A stretch of 64,000 bases of DNA from contig NZ_BDGT01000001.1 in NCBI RefSeq assembly GCF_001748285.1, positions 1 through 64,000 of the forward strand. Reading direction: 5' to 3'. The position numbers and the translations under genes were made by a program. Shown here in pieces: positions 1,703 through 26,029 of this stretch (position 1 is the first letter of the stretch; every line of letters begins with the position of its first letter). Source of the DNA: Thermogemmatispora onikobensis. Lineage in GTDB: Bacteria > Chloroflexota > Ktedonobacteria > Ktedonobacterales > Ktedonobacteraceae. Under the pieces are notes generated by a model that saw only the letters and a program-made list of their open reading frames with translations, ran no database searches and had not been told where the DNA came from.

Positions 1703-3211
1703 TCAGCGGCGCCCCTCTGCTTCTCTTATGCTTCTGGTGGCTGCTCTCTCCCCTCCCTGCGCGGCCTGGGCCACCAGCCGTGGCGCAGAGCGCCGACGCA
1801 GGCCCAGCGCATTGAAGAGGTAGCCGACAGTGAGCAGCAAGAAGAGCAGGTTGCGCAGCTCGACCAGAGGAAGAAAGCCCGGTACGCGCCAGACCTGGGT
1901 AGCGTCCTGGACCCGAGTATAGAGGAAGGGATAAATGAGCGAGGTCTGCAGGGCGATCAGCCCGAACCACAGCAACCAGCGGCGCTGCGTCGCCGTCAGA
2001 TAGGCCACAAGCGGCATCAGCCACATCAGATACTGCGGGCTGAACACTTTGCCCGTCGCCACGAAAACCAACAGAGCCGCCAGGGACGCCTCAGCAAAGG
2101 CCAGCCGCCCGCGCGCACTCTGCCAGAGCACCAGTCCATAGCCGGCCAGCAGCGCCAGCGTACTGCCGAGCGAGACGGCAGGAACCAGGGGGCTGAGCAG
2201 GTTAATCGAGCCGTAGGTATAGGCAACGCGCACCGTCTGCCCGACCAGGGCCGCCAGCCAGATCACCAGCGTGCCACTCGACTCAATCTGCACAGGACGC
2301 TGAGCGAAATATGCAAGCTGGCTGGCCACCGCTCCCTGGAAGTCCAGAAGTGCAAAGACTCCCGTGGTCCCGAGCACCAGCGCAAGACAAAGCAGCAGGT
2401 TTCGCCAGTGGCAGCGCCGCAGCCACGAGAGCGCTTGCGCCACCCGTCCTGAAATCCCCATAGTAGCCCTGGCTGCCCCCTGCGCGCCGGTGATGCTCGT
2501 CGCCCTTGCAGCCTGCTGCTCGGCAAAGAAAAGCGGGGGCAATAGCAGGAAAGGATAGATCTTGAGCAGAATAGCCAGAGCCAGCGCGCTATAGGCCGCT
2601 GTCCAATGGCGGCGCTCTGCGGCCAAAACACAGAGCAAGGTCAGGGCCGCTGGTACGAGATCAAAGCGCAACAAGGCCAGGCCCCACTCGCCCAGGAATA
2701 AGTAGCAGGTGAAGGCCAGGGCCGCTCCGCGTGGTCCCCAACGTAACAGGAGCCAATAGATCAACAGCGCAGCCAGCGCCATCAACAGCCCGAAAACGAG
2801 GGGATAGTAAGCCGAGGGCACAAGCAGGCCGGGGGTGAAGAGGATGAGCGTCAACGGAGGGTACTCGATGGGCAGCGTATGCAAAGGCGGCAGCTTCTCC
2901 GCCCGGGCGGGCAAAAACGAACAATCGATCTGAGGAGCCAGCGCATGGGCCTGGCCTCCGAACCAGAACGCCAGCCCGTAGCACTCGTAGCGCGTCACGT
3001 CCGACGTGGCCCAGACCATCTGCCAGGAAGAAAGTGCCAGCATGACCAGGAGCGCCAGCGCCAGAGGCAGGAAGGAGAGCGCTCCCCCAGTGGGCTCAGC
3101 CAGCCGTTCTAGCCCCCCTCTGACTCCCTGGGCCACAGCCGAGAGGGCGGAGACGGGGGTCTCCGCAACGGGGAGGCCTCCCGAACCCGAACTGCTGCGC
3201 ACATTTGACAT
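1703..3211 (-). CDS. multi-spanning membrane glycosyltransferase (GT87/DUF2029-like)
   Basis: A 502-residue protein with a short charged N-terminus and many hydrophobic segments, the pattern of polyprenyl-phosphate-sugar-dependent mannosyltransferases of the GT87/GT-C superfamily. After the first membrane segment a long outer loop carries the acidic and aromatic residues expected near the donor site (around residues 70-120), followed by the EYPPLTLIL block typical of DUF2029 proteins. The acceptor cannot be told from sequence. GAGAAAGG precedes the ATG at close spacing. It runs convergent to hsp20 and has no obvious operon partner. Confidence 0.7.
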   Translation of the reverse strand: MSNVRSSSGSGGLPVAETPVSALSAVAQGVRGGLERLAEPTGGALSFLPLALALLVMLALSSWQMVWATSDVTRYECYGLAFWFGGQAHALAPQIDCSFLPARAEKLPPLHTLPIEYPPLTLILFTPGLLVPSAYYPLVFGLLMALAALLIYWLLLRWGPRGAALAFTCYLFLGEWGLALLRFDLVPAALTLLCVLAAERRHWTAAYSALALAILLKIYPFLLLPPLFFAEQQAARATSITGAQGAARATMGISGRVAQALSWLRRCHWRNLLLCLALVLGTTGVFALLDFQGAVASQLAYFAQRPVQIESSGTLVIWLAALVGQTVRVAYTYGSINLLSPLVPAVSLGSTLALLAGYGLVLWQSARGRLAFAEASLAALLVFVATGKVFSPQYLMWLMPLVAYLTATQRRWLLWFGLIALQTSLIYPFLYTRVQDATQVWRVPGFLPLVELRNLLFLLLTVGYLFNALGLRRRSAPRLVAQAAQGGERAATRSIREAEGRR

Positions 3212-17485: not shown

Positions 17486-17626
17486 AAAGGGAAGCGTCAA
17501 GCAGGGAGAGATCGCTCCCTGCTCCCAATGGAGGAACGGGAGCTGTATCCCGGTCCGGCCCTGCCCTGGTTGGTTAGCTCCGGGGGCCGTGGCTGCGCCG
17601 GGTGCAGAGCAAGGGGCATCGCGACC

Positions 17627-19507
17627 ATGAGAGAGCAACGCCATTCAGGTGACCACTTCCCGCCGTTATTGGAGCGACCGCAGCGTAGCTGGCGACGCCT
17701 GCTGATTGATACCCTGCTGGCCTTTTTCGCCGCGGCGCTGGTCACCGCCGTGATCTATACCTTCGCGCTCTATCCGCGCATTCCGAACATTTCGCTGCTC
17801 TATCTACTCGTGGTGCTGGCGCTGGCCAGCACACGTGGTCTCTACGCTGCGGTGTTGACATCCGTTCTGGCTTTCCTTTTCTTTGACTACTTCCTGGTGC
17901 AGCCGCTCTACAGTCTGACTGTGAATCGTTTCGAAGAGTGGCTCGCCCTCTTCGTCTTTCTCACCGCTGCCATCATCACCGGGCAGATGACCAACGCCCT
18001 GCGCAGGCAGGCAGACGAAGCCCGGCGACGTGAGCGGGAGACACGCATTCTCTATAATCTAGTGCGAGCAGCCAACCACGAAGAGGACTTCCAGCACCAG
18101 CTGACCATTGTGACGCAGGCCGTTGCCCAGGTCTTTGCTTCCTGGGGGGTCTGCGACTGCGTGCTGCTCCTGCCTAATGAGCAAGGCAGGCTGGAAGTGC
18201 TCGCGAGTGCGCGCCTGCCGCGAGAGCAACTCCGGCTCTCGTCGGACGAGCAGGCCACTGCGGCCTGGGTCATGGCCAATGGCCAGGCCGCCGAGCTGCA
18301 TGATGTGCCTCTGGAGGGGAGTAGACCCTATGGGCGGGGCCTGCGTGCTACCCTGCAGAGTTCCCTGCGTGGCTGGAGCCGACGCCGCTATGCCCGGCTG
18401 CTGCCGCTCAAGACGGGCGGGCGTGTCCTGGGCGTGCTCCTGCTCGTCATGGAAGAGACCGAGTGGCCGCACCCGAGCAGAGTCAAGACCTGGCAGCCTC
18501 GCCTCACCGGGCCGACAGCGGCACTGGAGGGACCCTTTTTCTCAGCTTTTCTCGATCAGGCTGCGGCAATCATCGAGCGCGCTCGTCTCAGACAGGAGGG
18601 CCTGCAGCTCGAGCTGCTGCGCCAGACCGATGCACTGCGCACAGCCCTCCTCTCTTCCGTCTCACATGACCTGCGCACGCCCCTGGCCTCCATCAAAGCG
18701 GCGGCCAGTAGTCTCCTGCAGGAAGACATTGTGTGGGACGAGGAGAGCCGGCGCAGTTTTGCCCTCACCATCGAGCGCGAGGCCGACCGGCTCAACCGCC
18801 TCGTCGAAAACCTGCTCGACATGTCGCGCATCGAGGGCGGTGCCCTCAAGCCCGAGAAAGAGTGGTACCCTCTTGACGAATTGATCCATGATGTCCTGCT
18901 GCAACTGCAGCCGCTGCTGCAGCAGCGCCAGGTGGAGGTTGACCTGGAGGAGGACCTGCCGCCCGTGCCAGTCGATTATCTGCAGCTCAGTCAGGTGCTC
19001 ACGAACCTGATTGAAAACGCCGTGCGTCATACCCCTGCCAGCAGCCCGATTGAGATCACAGCCAGACGCAGCAATGGCTACGTGCAGGTCAGTGTCGCCG
19101 ATCGCGGGCCTGGCATTCCCTCCACCGATCTTGAGCGCATCTTCGACAAATTCTATCGTGTGAGGCGCGCACGAGGTCCAGGCAGCGGGAGTGGACGCGC
19201 CGGGGGGACTGGCCTTGGCCTGGCGGTCTGCAAGGGTCTAATCGAGGCCCACGGGGGGCGCATTTGGGCCGAGAACCGCCAGGGCGGTGGCGCGATCTTC
19301 CACTTTACCTTGCCGCTCAGCACTCAGGAGCAGGAGAGCACGAGGGAGCAGGCCGAGACCGCTGTCCCCGCGCCAGAGGGGACCAGGCCCAGGTCGACCA
19401 CCTCGCCTCTTGTGGCACCGGTCTCGGACGAAGAGACGGCAGAGACGAGTAATCTGGCTCGTGTTGGTAAGCGAGAGCAGAGGGAGGAGGAACAATCGCG
19501 TTCATGA
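17627..19507 (+). CDS. KdpD-like sensor histidine kinase lacking the KdpD N-terminal domain
   Basis: A 626-residue membrane kinase. A DUF4118 four-helix membrane domain (about 20-125) is followed by a GAF-like domain (about 145-310), a HisKA domain with SVSHDLRTPLA (His347) and an HATPase domain with NLIENAVRHTP, ADRGPGIP and GGTGLGLAV. This is the C-terminal half of KdpD; the cytoplasmic KdpD and Usp domains that sense potassium are missing. A disordered tail follows. The response-regulator gene overlaps by 4 bases. ATG at 17627 has AAGGGG before it; an in-frame ATG at 17528 lacks a ribosome site. No kdpFABC genes are present, so potassium control is not implied. Confidence 0.85.
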   Translation: MREQRHSGDHFPPLLERPQRSWRRLLIDTLLAFFAAALVTAVIYTFALYPRIPNISLLYLLVVLALASTRGLYAAVLTSVLAFLFFDYFLVQPLYSLTVNRFEEWLALFVFLTAAIITGQMTNALRRQADEARRRERETRILYNLVRAANHEEDFQHQLTIVTQAVAQVFASWGVCDCVLLLPNEQGRLEVLASARLPREQLRLSSDEQATAAWVMANGQAAELHDVPLEGSRPYGRGLRATLQSSLRGWSRRRYARLLPLKTGGRVLGVLLLVMEETEWPHPSRVKTWQPRLTGPTAALEGPFFSAFLDQAAAIIERARLRQEGLQLELLRQTDALRTALLSSVSHDLRTPLASIKAAASSLLQEDIVWDEESRRSFALTIEREADRLNRLVENLLDMSRIEGGALKPEKEWYPLDELIHDVLLQLQPLLQQRQVEVDLEEDLPPVPVDYLQLSQVLTNLIENAVRHTPASSPIEITARRSNGYVQVSVADRGPGIPSTDLERIFDKFYRVRRARGPGSGSGRAGGTGLGLAVCKGLIEAHGGRIWAENRQGGGAIFHFTLPLSTQEQESTREQAETAVPAPEGTRPRSTTSPLVAPVSDEETAETSNLARVGKREQREEEQSRS

Positions 19508-20277
19508 ATGCAACAGGCGGGGCACGCATCCTGGTTGTCGACGATGAGATCGAGATTGTCCGCGCGCTCCAGCGCAGCCTCAGCGCCTACGGCTATGAAG
19601 TCTACGCGGCCAGCAGTGGCGAAGAGGCCCTCGAAGCGCTTAGCCACTTTCGTCCAGATGTCATGCTGCTGGACCTGGGATTGCCAGGGATCAGCGGGCT
19701 AGAGGTCTGTAAGCGCGTGCGTGCTCACTCGAATCTCCCGATCATCGTTCTCTCGGTCAAAGACAGTGAGCGTGATAAGGTGCTGGCGCTCGATCTGGGA
19801 GCTGACGATTACGTCGCTAAGCCTTTTGGGATGAACGAGGTGCTGGCCCGCATCCGGGTGGCGCTGCGCCATGCAGCGCCGCTGCAGGGAGGAACAGCCG
19901 CGATCTTTAAGGCCGGCCCGCTAGGCATTGACTTTGCGCGTCGGCTGGTACTGCTCAACGGCAAAGAGGTAAAGCTTACACCAACAGAATATGAGCTACT
20001 CAAGGTCCTGGTACAGAACAGAGGCAAGATCATGACGCGCCAGATGCTCCTGACCCGCGTCTGGGGGAGCGGCTATGGAGGTGAGGCTCACTACTTGCAT
20101 GTCTACATTGGGCAGCTGCGACGCAAGATCGAGCCAGACCCAGCTCACCCTCGCTTTATTCTCACCATCTCCGGTGTTGGCTATCGTTTCTCCGCTGAAG
20201 AAGAGACGGCAGGAGAGGATGCAGAGGAGGAAGAGAGAGAAAGGAGTGGCGAGAGGGGGAAGCCTGCAAGGGAATAG
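19504..20277 (+). CDS. OmpR/KdpE-like response regulator
   Basis: A 257-residue regulator. The receiver domain has the acidic pair in VVDDE, phospho-acceptor Asp57 in VMLLDLGLPG and the lysine in VAKPFG. A winged-helix DNA-binding domain (about 135-228) has LTPTEYELLKVLVQNRGKI and GVGYRF. A charged tail of about 25 residues follows. The ATGA overlap with the kinase gene shows they are one unit. Its targets are unknown; OmpR-type regulators bind direct repeats about 10-11 bases apart, and such an array exists at 24205-24254. Confidence 0.92.
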   Translation: MNATGGARILVVDDEIEIVRALQRSLSAYGYEVYAASSGEEALEALSHFRPDVMLLDLGLPGISGLEVCKRVRAHSNLPIIVLSVKDSERDKVLALDLGADDYVAKPFGMNEVLARIRVALRHAAPLQGGTAAIFKAGPLGIDFARRLVLLNGKEVKLTPTEYELLKVLVQNRGKIMTRQMLLTRVWGSGYGGEAHYLHVYIGQLRRKIEPDPAHPRFILTISGVGYRFSAEEETAGEDAEEEERERSGERGKPARE

Positions 20278-21275: not shown

Positions 21276-21998
21276 CTAGCGGCTGCTGCCGCTAAGCTCC
21301 TGGAAGGTCTCAGGAGCGAAGCTGCTCCTGTCGGTCCCCTCTTCGGTGGTGGGGTGGGGGGAGAACTGAGTAGGCTCCTGCTCGCGGTGGGGAAGGAAGC
21401 GGGCGCCGCTCAGTACCAGCACCTCGCACGGGGCATGCTTCAGCACATACTCGACAGCGGGATCAATCTGCTGCAAGCTGCCGCGTACTCGCACGGGGCA
21501 GTTGGCCACAATGATCAGGTCGGCGGCGATCTGGGTCGCCTCATAAACAATGGCAGAGCCAGCCTGTCGCGCCTTGAGCACCCGCACCGTGAGCGCTGAG
21601 GGCATCTGGCGGGCCACCGAGCGCGCCCGCTCGACCAGAGCCTGGACGCGCTCCTCCTCTGTCCCCAGGGTGGCATCCAGGGGCAGCATAAAGGGCACCT
21701 CAATCACAGCCAGCGCCCAGACGCTTCCATTGCGATGGCGGGCCATCTGCAGGGCCAGAGCCAGGGCGCGATCGCTCTCCTCACTACAGTGCAGCAGCGG
21801 CACCAGAATCCGTGTCATCTTATTCAGCGAGCGCACGGCCCGGCTAGCGGTACGGCTTAGCTCAGTCTCTGGGGGCAAGTGAAGCATCCAGCCGAGAACC
21901 CCTATGATCGAGGCAGCAAAGAGGAGCGCAATGGCTACCCCGGTGGGAGTAACCAAGAGCGGATTCGTTGGCGTGGCTACCAGCGTCACCAGCATCAT
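21276..21998 (-). CDS. membrane-anchored universal stress protein
   Basis: A 240-residue protein with one N-terminal membrane segment (about 20-40), then a UspA domain from about residue 62 (ILVPLLHCSEESDRALALAL) to about 198 (CEVLVLSG). The usual nucleotide loop G-x2-G-x9-G-S appears as a changed NCPVRVRGSL, so ATP binding is uncertain. A disordered tail of about 40 residues follows. The start overlaps the end of the preceding small membrane gene by 4 bases. Being the last gene of a permease operon suggests it tunes the transporter; that is inference. Confidence 0.8.
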   Translation of the reverse strand: MMLVTLVATPTNPLLVTPTGVAIALLFAASIIGVLGWMLHLPPETELSRTASRAVRSLNKMTRILVPLLHCSEESDRALALALQMARHRNGSVWALAVIEVPFMLPLDATLGTEEERVQALVERARSVARQMPSALTVRVLKARQAGSAIVYEATQIAADLIIVANCPVRVRGSLQQIDPAVEYVLKHAPCEVLVLSGARFLPHREQEPTQFSPHPTTEEGTDRSSFAPETFQELSGSSR

Positions 21999-22291
21999 GG
22001 CTCACCTCCTCTCCGTTGGCGGGCGTGAGCCAGGCGCCGGGGAGGGAGCAGCTGGAGGCGCACCATACCCAGCGCCACAAAGGCCAGGCCCAACAGCACC
22101 AGCGTCCAGCTCTGCCAGCCCAGCCAGAGTGCCCGCAAACTAATAATGAGGCCCAGAGGAATAATGAGAACGCTCACCACCTGGCGATAGCGTCCTTGCC
22201 AGTCGCGGCTGTCCCGCATCACCTGCTCTTGCTTCTCACCTGCCTGGGTGATACAAGCATGTGCTCTCTCCCGACTTCGGCGGGCACTCAT
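21995..22291 (-). CDS. small two-helix membrane protein in a permease operon
   Basis: A 98-residue protein. A charged N-terminus of about 35 residues precedes two hydrophobic helices (VVSVLIIPLGLIISLRAL and LVLLGLAFVALGMV) and a basic tail. It overlaps both neighbours by 4 bases (ATGA), so it is translationally coupled between the permease and the stress protein. I know no named family; an accessory subunit of the permease is a reasonable guess. Confidence 0.7.
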   Translation of the reverse strand: MSARRSRERAHACITQAGEKQEQVMRDSRDWQGRYRQVVSVLIIPLGLIISLRALWLGWQSWTLVLLGLAFVALGMVRLQLLPPRRLAHARQRRGGEP

Positions 22292-24036
22292 CCTTTCCTC
22301 CTTTGCTCCTCTTCACGAGCCGTTGTCGTTGTGCGTCGACCATTGCCCCGGCTCTCCTGGGAGGAGAGTGGTACTGGCACCACGCGAGTGGGAGGCGCAG
22401 CCAGAGGCGCCCGCGGCTCTTCACCCGCCAGGTGGCGTTTGCGCGCCAGATTCTCGCGCAGTTCCTCAACCAGGTCATACTCCTCGGCATCTGCATAGAC
22501 AACCAGTTGTTCCTCGGGCCAGTCGCGCGGCACACTTCCAAAGATCGGCAGACCCGAGCGCTTGCGATGCCAGACATAAATCAGCAAGCCCAGCAGCAGC
22601 CAGCCCGGTCCGGCGAGCCGTCCGATAGCGTGTGTCAATACCACCATCACCAGCATACTGCTGATCCCCAGCAAGCCCAGGATGCCTACCACTGGCAGCA
22701 AGCGACTCTCGCCATCCTTTCCGCGGAAGCGAATATTCAGCGGCACCTTGAAAGGGCGCGGCGTCCAGGGATCGACGAAACGCAGCACCAGCAAGGAGAT
22801 GAAGACCAGAATATAGGCCGTCGCAGCGCCAAAGGCGTACATATTGCCCAGCACGTCGTAGGCATTGGGCGAGAGACCTGCCAGCCACAGCTCCAGCAGG
22901 GCAAAGCCGGAGAAGACCACCAGCGTGCGCACAGGCGTGCGAAACTTCGGGTGCACTCGTGCCAGTTGCCGTGGCAGCAGATCGTAGCGGGCCATAGAAT
23001 AAGTGATGCGCGAAGATCCGAAAACGCCCGCGTTCGACGAGATCAGCACCAATGTGGCGCCCAGCAGGGCCACGTAGGGGCCGGCAACCAGCCCGAGAAA
23101 AGGAATATGGCTGGCGAGCCAGGCGATTGGGTCGCCGTTGTGCTCGGCGAAAGACTGCCAGGGCAGCATCGCCAATCCCAGGTTCGAGAAGGCCAGGGCA
23201 TAGATCAGTACTGTCAAAATCAGGGCGAGCGAGGTGCGCGGCACCACCTTGCCGGGCCGAATCGTCTCCTGGCTGGCCTGACTAATCGATTCCAGGCCCA
23301 CGAAGGAGATGATCGCCAGCGATGCCCCATAGGCCAGATGGTAGGGATCGGGCCAGGACTGTGTCATCTGTTGCAGCAAGAGCTGTGGATCAAAAGCGAA
23401 CAGGAAGCCGAAGAAAAGGATCGTCGACTCGCTGATCACATCCAGAGCGCCCAGCACCTCATTGAAGCGTGAGGACTCACGCACCCCGATAATATTGAGG
23501 ATCGTCAACAGGACGACGAAAACAGTCGCTTCCAGGATGAGCCACGGCTGAACGCCGGGCAGGGTCAGCGCTCCCAGGTGCAGGTCGACGCGCGCATTCA
23601 GGGCCGGCAAGAAGAAGTTGATGTAGCCGGCAGAGGCCAGAGCGAAGAGAGAGATGTCGATAGTAAAATCCAACAGGACGGCCCAGCCGGCCACAAAGCC
23701 CCAGAAATCGCCCAGGCCGCGCAGCACGTAGAACTGGCCACCGCCGGCCATTGGATAGGCCGCTGCCAGCTCGGTGTAGGCCAGGCCGACCATCACGTAG
23801 ACCAGGCCAGCGAAAAGGAAGGCCACATTGGTCGCGCCCTGAGCCGCGGCCATCACGATGCCCAGCGCCACATAGACATCGGCCCCTACGTCAGCGTACC
23901 CCCAGGTATAGGAACCCCAGATCCCCACCGCGCGCCTGAGTCCCGGTCCCACCTGCTCCTGGGCCGCTGCGGGAGTAGTGTGTGTATCGGCCTCAGCGGA
24001 GGCGAGCGGCGCTCGCGCTGACTGATTGCCGAGCAT
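22288..24036 (-). CDS. APC-family amino acid permease
   Basis: A 582-residue secondary transporter with about twelve membrane segments. The APC signature region appears early (GSYTWGYADVGADVYVALG, then YTELAAAYPMAGGGQFYVLRGLG) and SRITYSMARYDLLP in the middle. It would import an amino acid or related compound by cation symport or exchange. The C-terminal 80 residues are hydrophilic and could be regulatory. GAAGGAGGGAAG precedes the ATG. The two following genes overlap it, forming a three-gene operon driven by a promoter with TTGAG repeats. Confidence 0.88.
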   Translation of the reverse strand: MLGNQSARAPLASAEADTHTTPAAAQEQVGPGLRRAVGIWGSYTWGYADVGADVYVALGIVMAAAQGATNVAFLFAGLVYVMVGLAYTELAAAYPMAGGGQFYVLRGLGDFWGFVAGWAVLLDFTIDISLFALASAGYINFFLPALNARVDLHLGALTLPGVQPWLILEATVFVVLLTILNIIGVRESSRFNEVLGALDVISESTILFFGFLFAFDPQLLLQQMTQSWPDPYHLAYGASLAIISFVGLESISQASQETIRPGKVVPRTSLALILTVLIYALAFSNLGLAMLPWQSFAEHNGDPIAWLASHIPFLGLVAGPYVALLGATLVLISSNAGVFGSSRITYSMARYDLLPRQLARVHPKFRTPVRTLVVFSGFALLELWLAGLSPNAYDVLGNMYAFGAATAYILVFISLLVLRFVDPWTPRPFKVPLNIRFRGKDGESRLLPVVGILGLLGISSMLVMVVLTHAIGRLAGPGWLLLGLLIYVWHRKRSGLPIFGSVPRDWPEEQLVVYADAEEYDLVEELRENLARKRHLAGEEPRAPLAAPPTRVVPVPLSSQESRGNGRRTTTTAREEEQRRKG

Positions 24037-24189
24037 GAGACTTCCCTCCTTCTCTGCAGGGCGAGGCCGCAGGGGTGGCTGATCCGTTCCTTCTTCTCTT
24101 CTCTGCGATCTTCGGACCGGTTCCCGCTCGTTCCAGCTGGGCGCGCCGCGTCTCGGCTCCCGCAGTCTCGCCCTGTGAGCGTTACTCCC

Positions 24190-24254
24190 ATTATAAAAGC
24201 GCCTGCCTCAAGGAAGCCTCAAGAAAAAGCAACACCTGCTCAAAAGCTGCTCAA
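24190..24254 (-). promoter_or_regulatory. permease promoter with four phased TTGAG repeats
   Basis: On the minus strand TTGAG occurs at 24254-24250, 24243-24239, 24222-24218 and 24211-24207, spaced 11, 21 and 11 bases, so all lie on one face of the helix. A perfect TATAAT follows at 24195-24190. No -35 sits at a normal distance, as expected for an activator-dependent promoter. An OmpR-family regulator is the likely type of binder. Confidence 0.55.
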
Positions 24255-24297
24255 GATGGCGCCTGTTCCCCGGACCGTCTACACACTGCCGTTGCCC

Positions 24298-24326
24298 TTG
24301 CGCTTTCTTTCTCTAGAAGATAGAAT
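24298..24326 (+). promoter_or_regulatory. promoter for the MoxR/VWA operon
   Basis: TTGCGC (24298-24303), a 17-base spacer and TAGAAT (24321-24326). Transcription would start near 24333, giving a leader of about 290 bases in which I see no gene. Confidence 0.5.
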
Positions 24327-24625
24327 AGGATAGGTTCCACACGTTTTCCTGGTGAGTGGGCGTCTGGAGTGCCCCAGGCCCGTGGCCAGCCAGTCTGTCT
24401 GCCGGAGTCACTCGACCAGGCAAGAGCGTTGGCGACGGGCGGCAACGCAACGGCTGCCTTCGACCGGCTGCTCGCAGCAGCAATGCTCCTGGGCAGGAGC
24501 AGCCAGCGCATTGGCCCACATTGCGCTCACCCATGAGCGCAGCCTTGGGCCGAGTCGAGAAGGCGGAGCGCCGGAGGCGCAGAGCGCACACGTAACCACC
24601 CCCGAGAAAGGTAGCTTAGAGCGGA

Positions 24626-26029
24626 ATGACCATCACAACACAACCGCGCACAATCGGAGAACTGCGTGAAAGTGGCTACAGAGTCCTCTCCGTCAAAGAA
24701 GAGATGCGCAAAAATCTGATCGAGAAAATTCGCAAAGGAGAGGAACTGTTTCCCGGGATCATCGGCTACGAGGACACGGTGATTCCACAGATTGAGAACG
24801 CGATCCTTTCCGGCCAGGACATCGTCTTCCTCGGAGAACGTGGTCAGGCCAAGACGCGCATGGCGCGCAGCCTGGTCAATCTGCTCGATGAGGAGATTCC
24901 GGTCATTGCTGGCTGTGAAATCAACGATAATCCCTACGCGCCAATTTGCAAAGCATGCCGCGATAAGGTAGCAGAGCAAGGCGACAAGGTTGAAATTGTC
25001 TGGCTGCCGCGGGATCGCCGCTACAGTGAGAAGTTGGCCACACCAGACATCACCATCTCCGACCTCATCGGTGAGGTCGATCCCGTGCGCGTTGCCGAAG
25101 GGCGCTATCTCTCGGACGAGCTGACCATTCACTACGGCCTGATCCCTCGTACCAATCGCGGCATCTTCTGTATCAACGAGCTGCCCGATCTGGCCGAGCG
25201 CATCCAGGTTGGCCTGCTCAATATCATGGAAGAGCGCGATGTCCAGATCCGCGGGTATAAGATCCGGCTGCCGCTTGATGTCTATGTGGTGGCCAGCGCC
25301 AACCCCGAGGACTATACCAATCGTGGGCGGATCATCACGCCGCTTAAGGACCGCATCGGGTCCGAGATTCGCACCCACTATCCGCTCGAAATCGAGCACG
25401 AGATTCAGATCATGGAGGCGGAGAGCAACCGTTTTCCCTCCGATGGGCTGGAGGTTGTGGTGCCGCGCTTCATGAAAGAGATCGTTGCCATGGTGACCCA
25501 CCTGGCGCGGAGCAGCAATGACATTAGCCAGCGATCCGGCGTCAGTGTCCGTGTCTCGATCACCAACTATGAGAACGTGATCAGCAATGCCTGTCGCCGG
25601 GCCCTCCGGCTGGGCGAGCGTGTAGCAGCGCCGCGCGTGAGCGATCTCTCGGCCATCATCGCTTCAACCAGCGGCAAGATCGAGCTGGATACCGTGGGCG
25701 AGGTCAAGGAGGAGCGCGTTGTTGGGCGCCTGATCAATGGGGCAGTGGCGGAGGTCTTTGGCCTGTACTTTGAGCCGCGCGAGTTCGATCAGCTCCTGGC
25801 TGGCTTTGAGCGCGGCCTGAGCGTCCAGGTCGGCAACGACCTGCCGGCAATGGAATACGTCAACCAGCTCGCGCGCGTCGGCGGGCTGAGCAAGGCCATC
25901 GATAAGCTGCAGGCTCGCGGGCATCCCGCGACCATCGCTTCGGCGGTCGAGTTTATCCTTGAGGGCCTTCACCTGAATCGCCGCCTCAATAAAGACGAGA
26001 TGAGTGGCAAGATCCGTTATCGACGCTAA
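24626..26029 (+). CDS. MoxR/magnesium-chelatase-like AAA+ ATPase
   Basis: A 467-residue ATPase. Walker A is GERGQAKT (70-77), looser than the standard loop. The Walker B strand reads GIFCINELPDL, with Asn where many AAA+ proteins have Asp; this pattern recurs in this branch as far as I recall. NIMEERDVQIRG and ASANPEDYTNRG give sensor 1, and PLKDRIGSEIRTHYP supplies the arginine finger region. A cysteine cluster (CEI...ICKAC) near 93-110 could bind metal. MoxR ATPases act with VWA proteins in protein or cofactor maturation, and the VWA gene follows 158 bases later. Confidence 0.85.
   Translation: MTITTQPRTIGELRESGYRVLSVKEEMRKNLIEKIRKGEELFPGIIGYEDTVIPQIENAILSGQDIVFLGERGQAKTRMARSLVNLLDEEIPVIAGCEINDNPYAPICKACRDKVAEQGDKVEIVWLPRDRRYSEKLATPDITISDLIGEVDPVRVAEGRYLSDELTIHYGLIPRTNRGIFCINELPDLAERIQVGLLNIMEERDVQIRGYKIRLPLDVYVVASANPEDYTNRGRIITPLKDRIGSEIRTHYPLEIEHEIQIMEAESNRFPSDGLEVVVPRFMKEIVAMVTHLARSSNDISQRSGVSVRVSITNYENVISNACRRALRLGERVAAPRVSDLSAIIASTSGKIELDTVGEVKEERVVGRLINGAVAEVFGLYFEPREFDQLLAGFERGLSVQVGNDLPAMEYVNQLARVGGLSKAIDKLQARGHPATIASAVEFILEGLHLNRRLNKDEMSGKIRYRR

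Follow-up and report, generated by a model that had tools for sequence, protein, structure and literature searches.

The window (the whole stretch of Thermogemmatispora onikobensis DNA analysed here, 64,000 nucleotides in length) carries on its minus strand a gene for an APC-superfamily permease, followed by two short genes with which it is probably co-transcribed, and on its plus strand the genes of a KdpD-like histidine kinase and a KdpE-type response regulator (Table 1). Upstream of the permease the minus strand reads, in order, TTGAG-N6-TTGAG-N16-TTGAG-N6-TTGAG-N11-TATAAT, with box starts that are 11, 21 and 11 nucleotides apart. A preliminary description had pointed out four TTGAG repeats with this spacing, accompanied by a perfect TATAAT and no proper -35 element. 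All three features were borne out: the boxes have exact minus-strand coordinates, the TATAAT follows the last of them by 11 bp, and the -35 is indeed missing, since a sigma-70 scan of 24030-24630 on either strand found no -35/-10 pair. On the same ground an ordinary sigma-70 promoter was rejected. A riboswitch in the 5' leader was likewise discarded, as no Rfam family reached its gathering score in the window. We also observed a genus-conserved block upstream of the boxes (approximately 24285-24360), which may serve as promoter for the gene that starts in the other direction at 24626, presumably of MoxR type.

Table 1. Features of the permease locus and of the second kdpE (C3, another contig of the same genome)
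Feature	Position	Strand	Remarks
KdpD C-terminal-half histidine kinase	17528..19507	+	DUF4118 + HisKA + HATPase_c, no PF02702 N-half
KdpE-type response regulator, candidate binder	19504..20277	+	Pfam, NCBIfam, PDB alignment, recognition helix
Universal-stress-type protein (Usp)	21276..21998	-	Pfam Usp; probably co-transcribed
98-aa small protein	21995..22291	-	overlaps permease stop; probably co-transcribed
APC-superfamily permease, 582 aa, target gene	22288..24036	-	Pfam AA_permease_2
-10 element TATAAT	24190..24195	-	11 bp after box 4; invariant in 5 species
Box 4 TTGAG	24207..24211	-	43 from box 1; invariant in 5 Thermogemmatispora
Box 3 TTGAG	24218..24222	-	32 from box 1; invariant in 5 Thermogemmatispora
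Box 2 TTGAG	24239..24243	-	11 from box 1; invariant in 5 Thermogemmatispora
Box 1 TTGAG	24250..24254	-	seen in sequence; invariant in 5 Thermogemmatispora
Second kdpE	C3:74197-74907		directly upstream of four-box site and kdp operon

A cluster of four same-strand TTGAG words spanning at most 65 bp is found a single time in the window; 200 Markov resamplings produced none, and the exact four-box array has an expectation of about 2e-6 per genome of this size and base composition. Conservation of the repeats, on which the preliminary description had staked its proposal, was readily apparent. In an alignment of five Thermogemmatispora genomes all 20 box bases and all six bases of the TATAAT were invariant, the corresponding figures being 28 of 39 for the other positions in 24190-24254 and 67 of 153 for the leader. 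The permease start and a Shine-Dalgarno-like AAGGAGG are also conserved in the genus, and the permease itself is 95-96% identical to that of the nearest named genomes, all Thermogemmatispora species. The array is kept in two other genera as well, at the orthologous permease of G015 (four boxes, spacing 10/21/11) and of Ktedonosporobacter rubrisoli (TTGAG at 0, 11 and 43, TTTAG at 32). In both of these the best or likely -10 is TATACC, lying 19-20 bp from box 4 rather than 11, and in both a Usp gene again lies behind the permease. Ktedonobacter robiniae has a truncated permease, with about 92 matching residues, and lacks the array. No such TTGAG array was found at the 61%-identical permease homologues in G048 and G060 (L039 and L038, respectively), nor a good one in the 16 upstream regions scanned of more distant homologues.

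When the four-box pattern was searched with up to three mismatches in the 5.56-Mb genome of T. onikobensis, two arrays were found, the permease site (0 mismatches) and a site before kdpABC (1 mismatch), while the reversed control pattern gave none at the same threshold. The second array (C3:74925-74972) starts 5 bp past the end of the second kdpE ORF. Downstream of the array come a 188-aa gene, a receiver-like gene and then kdpA, kdpB and kdpC; the 188-aa protein is Usp-like by look alone and has no Pfam match. This pair of arrays, at permease and kdp, is present in all six Thermogemmatispora genomes. Across the family, the same search detected the array in 29 of 29 genomes, with 108 hits compared with 2 for the reversed pattern. 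The regions around these hits comprised 106 distinct sites, which we grouped as 95 arrays. The first downstream ORF was of K+ type in 21 of the 26 arrays with 0-1 mismatch, in 11 of 22 with two mismatches and in 21 of 47 with three, where K+ type means kdp-leader-, kdpA-, KdpD/DUF4118-, KdpD-N-half-, KimA-, APC- or permease-like, the permease-like class includes one weak match (L192, 22% identity) and the KimA class rests on the match of one array-associated protein, from another genus, to solved KimA (E 7.5e-103). Among the arrays with two or three mismatches, about half stand without a recognised K+ gene immediately downstream, several of these lying within coding sequence, and five 1-mismatch arrays are likewise without one. 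As a separate observation, the arrays at L125 (5804-5851), L126 (5959-6006), L128 (4439-4486), L178 (358-405) and L194 (3610-3657) stand before genes for proteins of about 300 aa that resemble the sensor part of KdpD without the kinase, and those at L206, L193, L191 and L196 precede genes that, judged by eye from the translation, are serine/threonine protein kinase-like.

A search of the phylum with up to two mismatches found the array in 31 of 301 genomes, with a single control hit, and 16 of the 31 lie outside the family. In 18 of 20 regions outside the family (representing 14 of the 16 genomes, with G252 left out and G040 reached only through a short search locus), homologues of kdpDE, kdpABC or kimA adjoin the site, L264 and L265 being the two without. 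The kdp region of K. rubrisoli (L129) has no array at up to three mismatches, although its KdpE is of the His type described below. Searches of open-licence PMC papers brought up none whose title or abstract describes a KdpE operator of this TTGAG kind.

The position of the boxes relative to the promoter is also constrained. Among 87 sites that are non-redundant at 75% identity (from the 106), a TATAAT-like -10, defined as a hexamer with at least five of six matches to TATAAT, lies exactly 11 bp downstream of box 4 in 26, and any other offset from 0 to 30 accounts for at most 3. Relative to the mean of the other offsets this corresponds to a binomial p of about 2e-36, a value that treats the sites as independent when some are related. 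At the Thermogemmatispora kdp arrays we found no convincing -10 at +11 (AAACTC in T. onikobensis). In larger genomes the arrays can overlap with a 32-bp offset, which gives a run of at least three putative dimer sites (loci L184, L190, L201, L211, L223, L230 and L232).

The candidate binder encoded in the window, a regulator to which the preliminary description had already pointed, has receiver and OmpR-type winged-helix domains (PF00072 and PF00486). Its best NCBIfam model is NF007820 (KdpE; 212.6 bits, under the equivalog cut-off of 325) and its best PDB hits, 4kfc and 4kny, are E. coli KdpE. It keeps Arg200 and Thr215 of the E. coli protein and has His at position 193; the KdpEs that adjoin TTGAG arrays similarly have His in place of Arg193. 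According to the E. coli study, Arg193 is conserved among KdpE orthologues and essential for binding (PMC3264566), and because the window regulator departs from this we file it as KdpE-type rather than as a canonical KdpE. Its LHVY recognition helix is found in only 2 of the 19 OmpR-family regulator matches of the genome, the other being the C3 paralogue. To relate helix and site we used 49 regulator loci, 19 of T. onikobensis and 30 returned for an Arg-type query. Of the 10 His-type loci, 6 had a four-box site with up to three mismatches no more than 1.5 kb away, compared with 0 of the 39 others, in a set where one T. onikobensis regulator is present twice over and several loci are mutually orthologous. 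L313 and L317 count as independent positives, since it was their boxes that had first led to L275, L305, L318 and L320. The window KdpE is among the four misses because its candidate site is about 4 kb away; no array lies within 1.5 kb of L300, an LHVY locus, or of L296 and L298, both LHVF loci. KdpD is split in this genome: the window kinase is without the KdpD N-terminal domain, which together with a Usp domain forms a separate 452-aa protein (L121 11084-12442) encoded behind kdpC on another contig.

The best PDB hits of the permease are the amino-acid transporters 6f34 and 5oqt, and KimA (6s3k) is absent from its 22 PDB hits at 1e-5. The genome has no KimA orthologue, the best match being 28%. 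APC-superfamily amino-acid transporters carry a Gly-x-Gly substrate motif in TM1. In the alignment with 5oqt/6f34, ADVGADVY of the permease stands opposite AIIGTGIF, so that the motif is missing and the segment carries two conserved Asp instead. The stretch ADVGAD[VI]Y recurs in almost every homologue of about 40% identity or more, the exceptions being L063 and L073. Given this TM1 segment, the regulon and the absence of KimA orthologues from the genome, it is a reasonable guess that the permease carries a cation, with K+ as the first candidate.

We consider it very probable, judging from the sequences compared here, that the four TTGAG boxes make up a KdpE-type operator, boxes 1-2 being one dimer site and boxes 3-4 a second in tandem. 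KdpE would be the most likely binder because the same four-box layout precedes potassium-uptake genes in many related bacteria. The dedicated OmpR-type activator put forward in the preliminary description is strongly supported by the conservation of the array and its recurrence at kdp, kimA and kdpD loci, and may now be sharpened to KdpE. In the mechanism that we propose, K+ limitation or osmotic stress would lead KdpD to phosphorylate KdpE, two dimers of which would bind in head-to-tail orientation to a single face of the DNA, at a distance of 32 bp, or three helical turns. Of these, the downstream dimer would replace the -35 element and bring RNA polymerase to the TATAAT that follows 11 bp on, thereby switching on the permease along with the small protein and the Usp protein, and the second dimer site, 32 bp away, would presumably add cooperativity. 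The comparison itself establishes the array, its fixed spacing, its conservation, its recurrence at kdp, kimA and kdpD genes and a KdpE recognition helix that co-varies with it; we infer KdpE binding, the signal, the acting KdpE paralogue and activation rather than repression, the last because the -35 is missing, the box-to--10 distance is fixed and E. coli kdp is activated by KdpE.

In a variant of this explanation, fully compatible with it, the second KdpE or both regulators would bind the boxes, such that one stimulus drives pump and permease and the window KdpE may serve other sites or the same ones. We give this only slightly less than an even chance. On sequence the C3 paralogue is an equally good candidate. 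Both regulators have the LHVY helix, the two loci share the box word, and a four-box site follows the second kdpE immediately, whereas the window gene is some 4 kb from its own. Nevertheless, the window kdpDE pair stands next to the permease in T. carboxidivorans, T. aurantia and T. tikiterensis too, kdpDE adjoin a permease homologue in the distant loci L050, L052, L059 and L061, and no kdpD match adjoins the second kdpE in the stretch read.

Repression by KdpE, in which an array overlapping the promoter would shut the permease off, seems improbable to us. OmpR-family regulators can repress, and the array does cover the whole -35 region, but with no -35 present the promoter should need help, and the constant 11 bp that separate the -10 from box 4 in many promoters suit contact with polymerase. 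Moreover, the kdp operons share the layout, and KdpE activates kdp in E. coli (PMC3264566). It is harder still to believe that some other TTGAG-reading regulator acts at the permease and that the kdp genes are merely its further targets: the genome does offer 19 OmpR-family regulator matches, but only the two LHVY regulators among them match the helix seen beside TTGAG arrays, and arrays come after kdpE genes in many genomes. Finally, TTGAG is slightly enriched in the window (148 observed, 128.3 expected), as repeats arising by chance or composition might lead one to expect, but an origin of that kind is barely conceivable against the 0 of 200 resamplings, the 108 hits compared with 2 for the control and the conservation of the array, and we have rejected it.

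A wider reading is that KdpE in Chloroflexota follows a fixed grammar in which only the half-site word varies, with the permease as a new class of K+ importer. The grammar would be two dimers at 0/11/32/43 with a -10 at +11; the word would be set by one recognition-helix residue, His giving TTGAG and Arg a TTTAC-like word; and the permease, an amino-acid-permease relative with two acidic TM1 residues, would replace KimA in genomes without it. We advance this tentatively and think it rather more likely to fail than to hold. When the 16 upstream regions of distant permease homologues were scanned for the 0/11/32/43 geometry with free words and 60 shuffles each, L050, L055 and L061 were picked out, and L052 weakly. 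In a 1000-shuffle repeat covering six of the 16 (L055 lies outside it), equally good arrangements arose in 0 shuffles for L061 (TCTGAAT/TCTAAAC), 7 for L050, 22 for L052 (TTTAC-like), 151 for L056, and 422 and 321 for the two L059 genes. Since shuffling preserved nothing beyond base content and the loci tried were many, these scans are suggestive only. A free-word search of the 49 regulator loci with a -10 at +11 gave 2 hits at the 32-bp layout and at most 1 at any of 22 other layouts, and 2 are too few to call the grammar general. Two individual loci are worth recording. L323 has TTCAC three times plus GTCAC in the 11/21/11 layout (3027-3074, minus strand), with TATACT 11 bp on; it adjoins another OmpR-family regulator of T. 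onikobensis and has no clear large gene downstream. L316, an Arg-type regulator locus, has a four-box TTTAC/TTTAT site with E. coli-like words and the same geometry (3 mismatches).

The data support a candidate new operator variant of a known regulator, KdpE, together with a K+ transporter candidate from an uncharacterised permease family. Such an operator would make K+-stress control readable in a phylum with few genetic tools, would allow regulon members to be predicted from sequence alone, and would present a natural specificity switch, in which Arg193 to His accompanies TTTA(T/C)A to TTGAG.

In E. coli, KdpE binds two half-sites, TTTATA and TTTACA, that are separated by 5 bp and so stand in an 11-bp register, and needs R193 (PMC3264566). 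The array resembles this kdpFABC operator (TTTATA-N5-TTTACA) in its direct half-sites, 11-bp register and initial TT, in its position upstream of K+ transport genes and in its predicted binder, a KdpE-type winged helix (PMC3264566). It differs in the half-site word, which is TTGAG rather than TTTA(T/C)A, in having two dimer sites 32 bp apart rather than one, and in the recognition-helix His that replaces the essential Arg193. In promoters of the PhoB or pho box class an activator likewise sits over the -35 region beside a good -10, as proposed here, but the word, regulator and stimulus are others, and contiguous pho boxes set dimer sites 22 bp apart compared with 32 bp in the array. Their 11-nucleotide direct repeat units (PMC4415409) are nevertheless shared. 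The direct repeats of M. tuberculosis PhoP (PMC4832192) have a similarly strict spacing, with 7-bp motifs and constant 4-bp spacers in a row, and tandem tri- and tetra-repeats are bound more tightly. In contrast to those repeats, the array upstream of the permease skips a full helical turn between its two predicted dimers.
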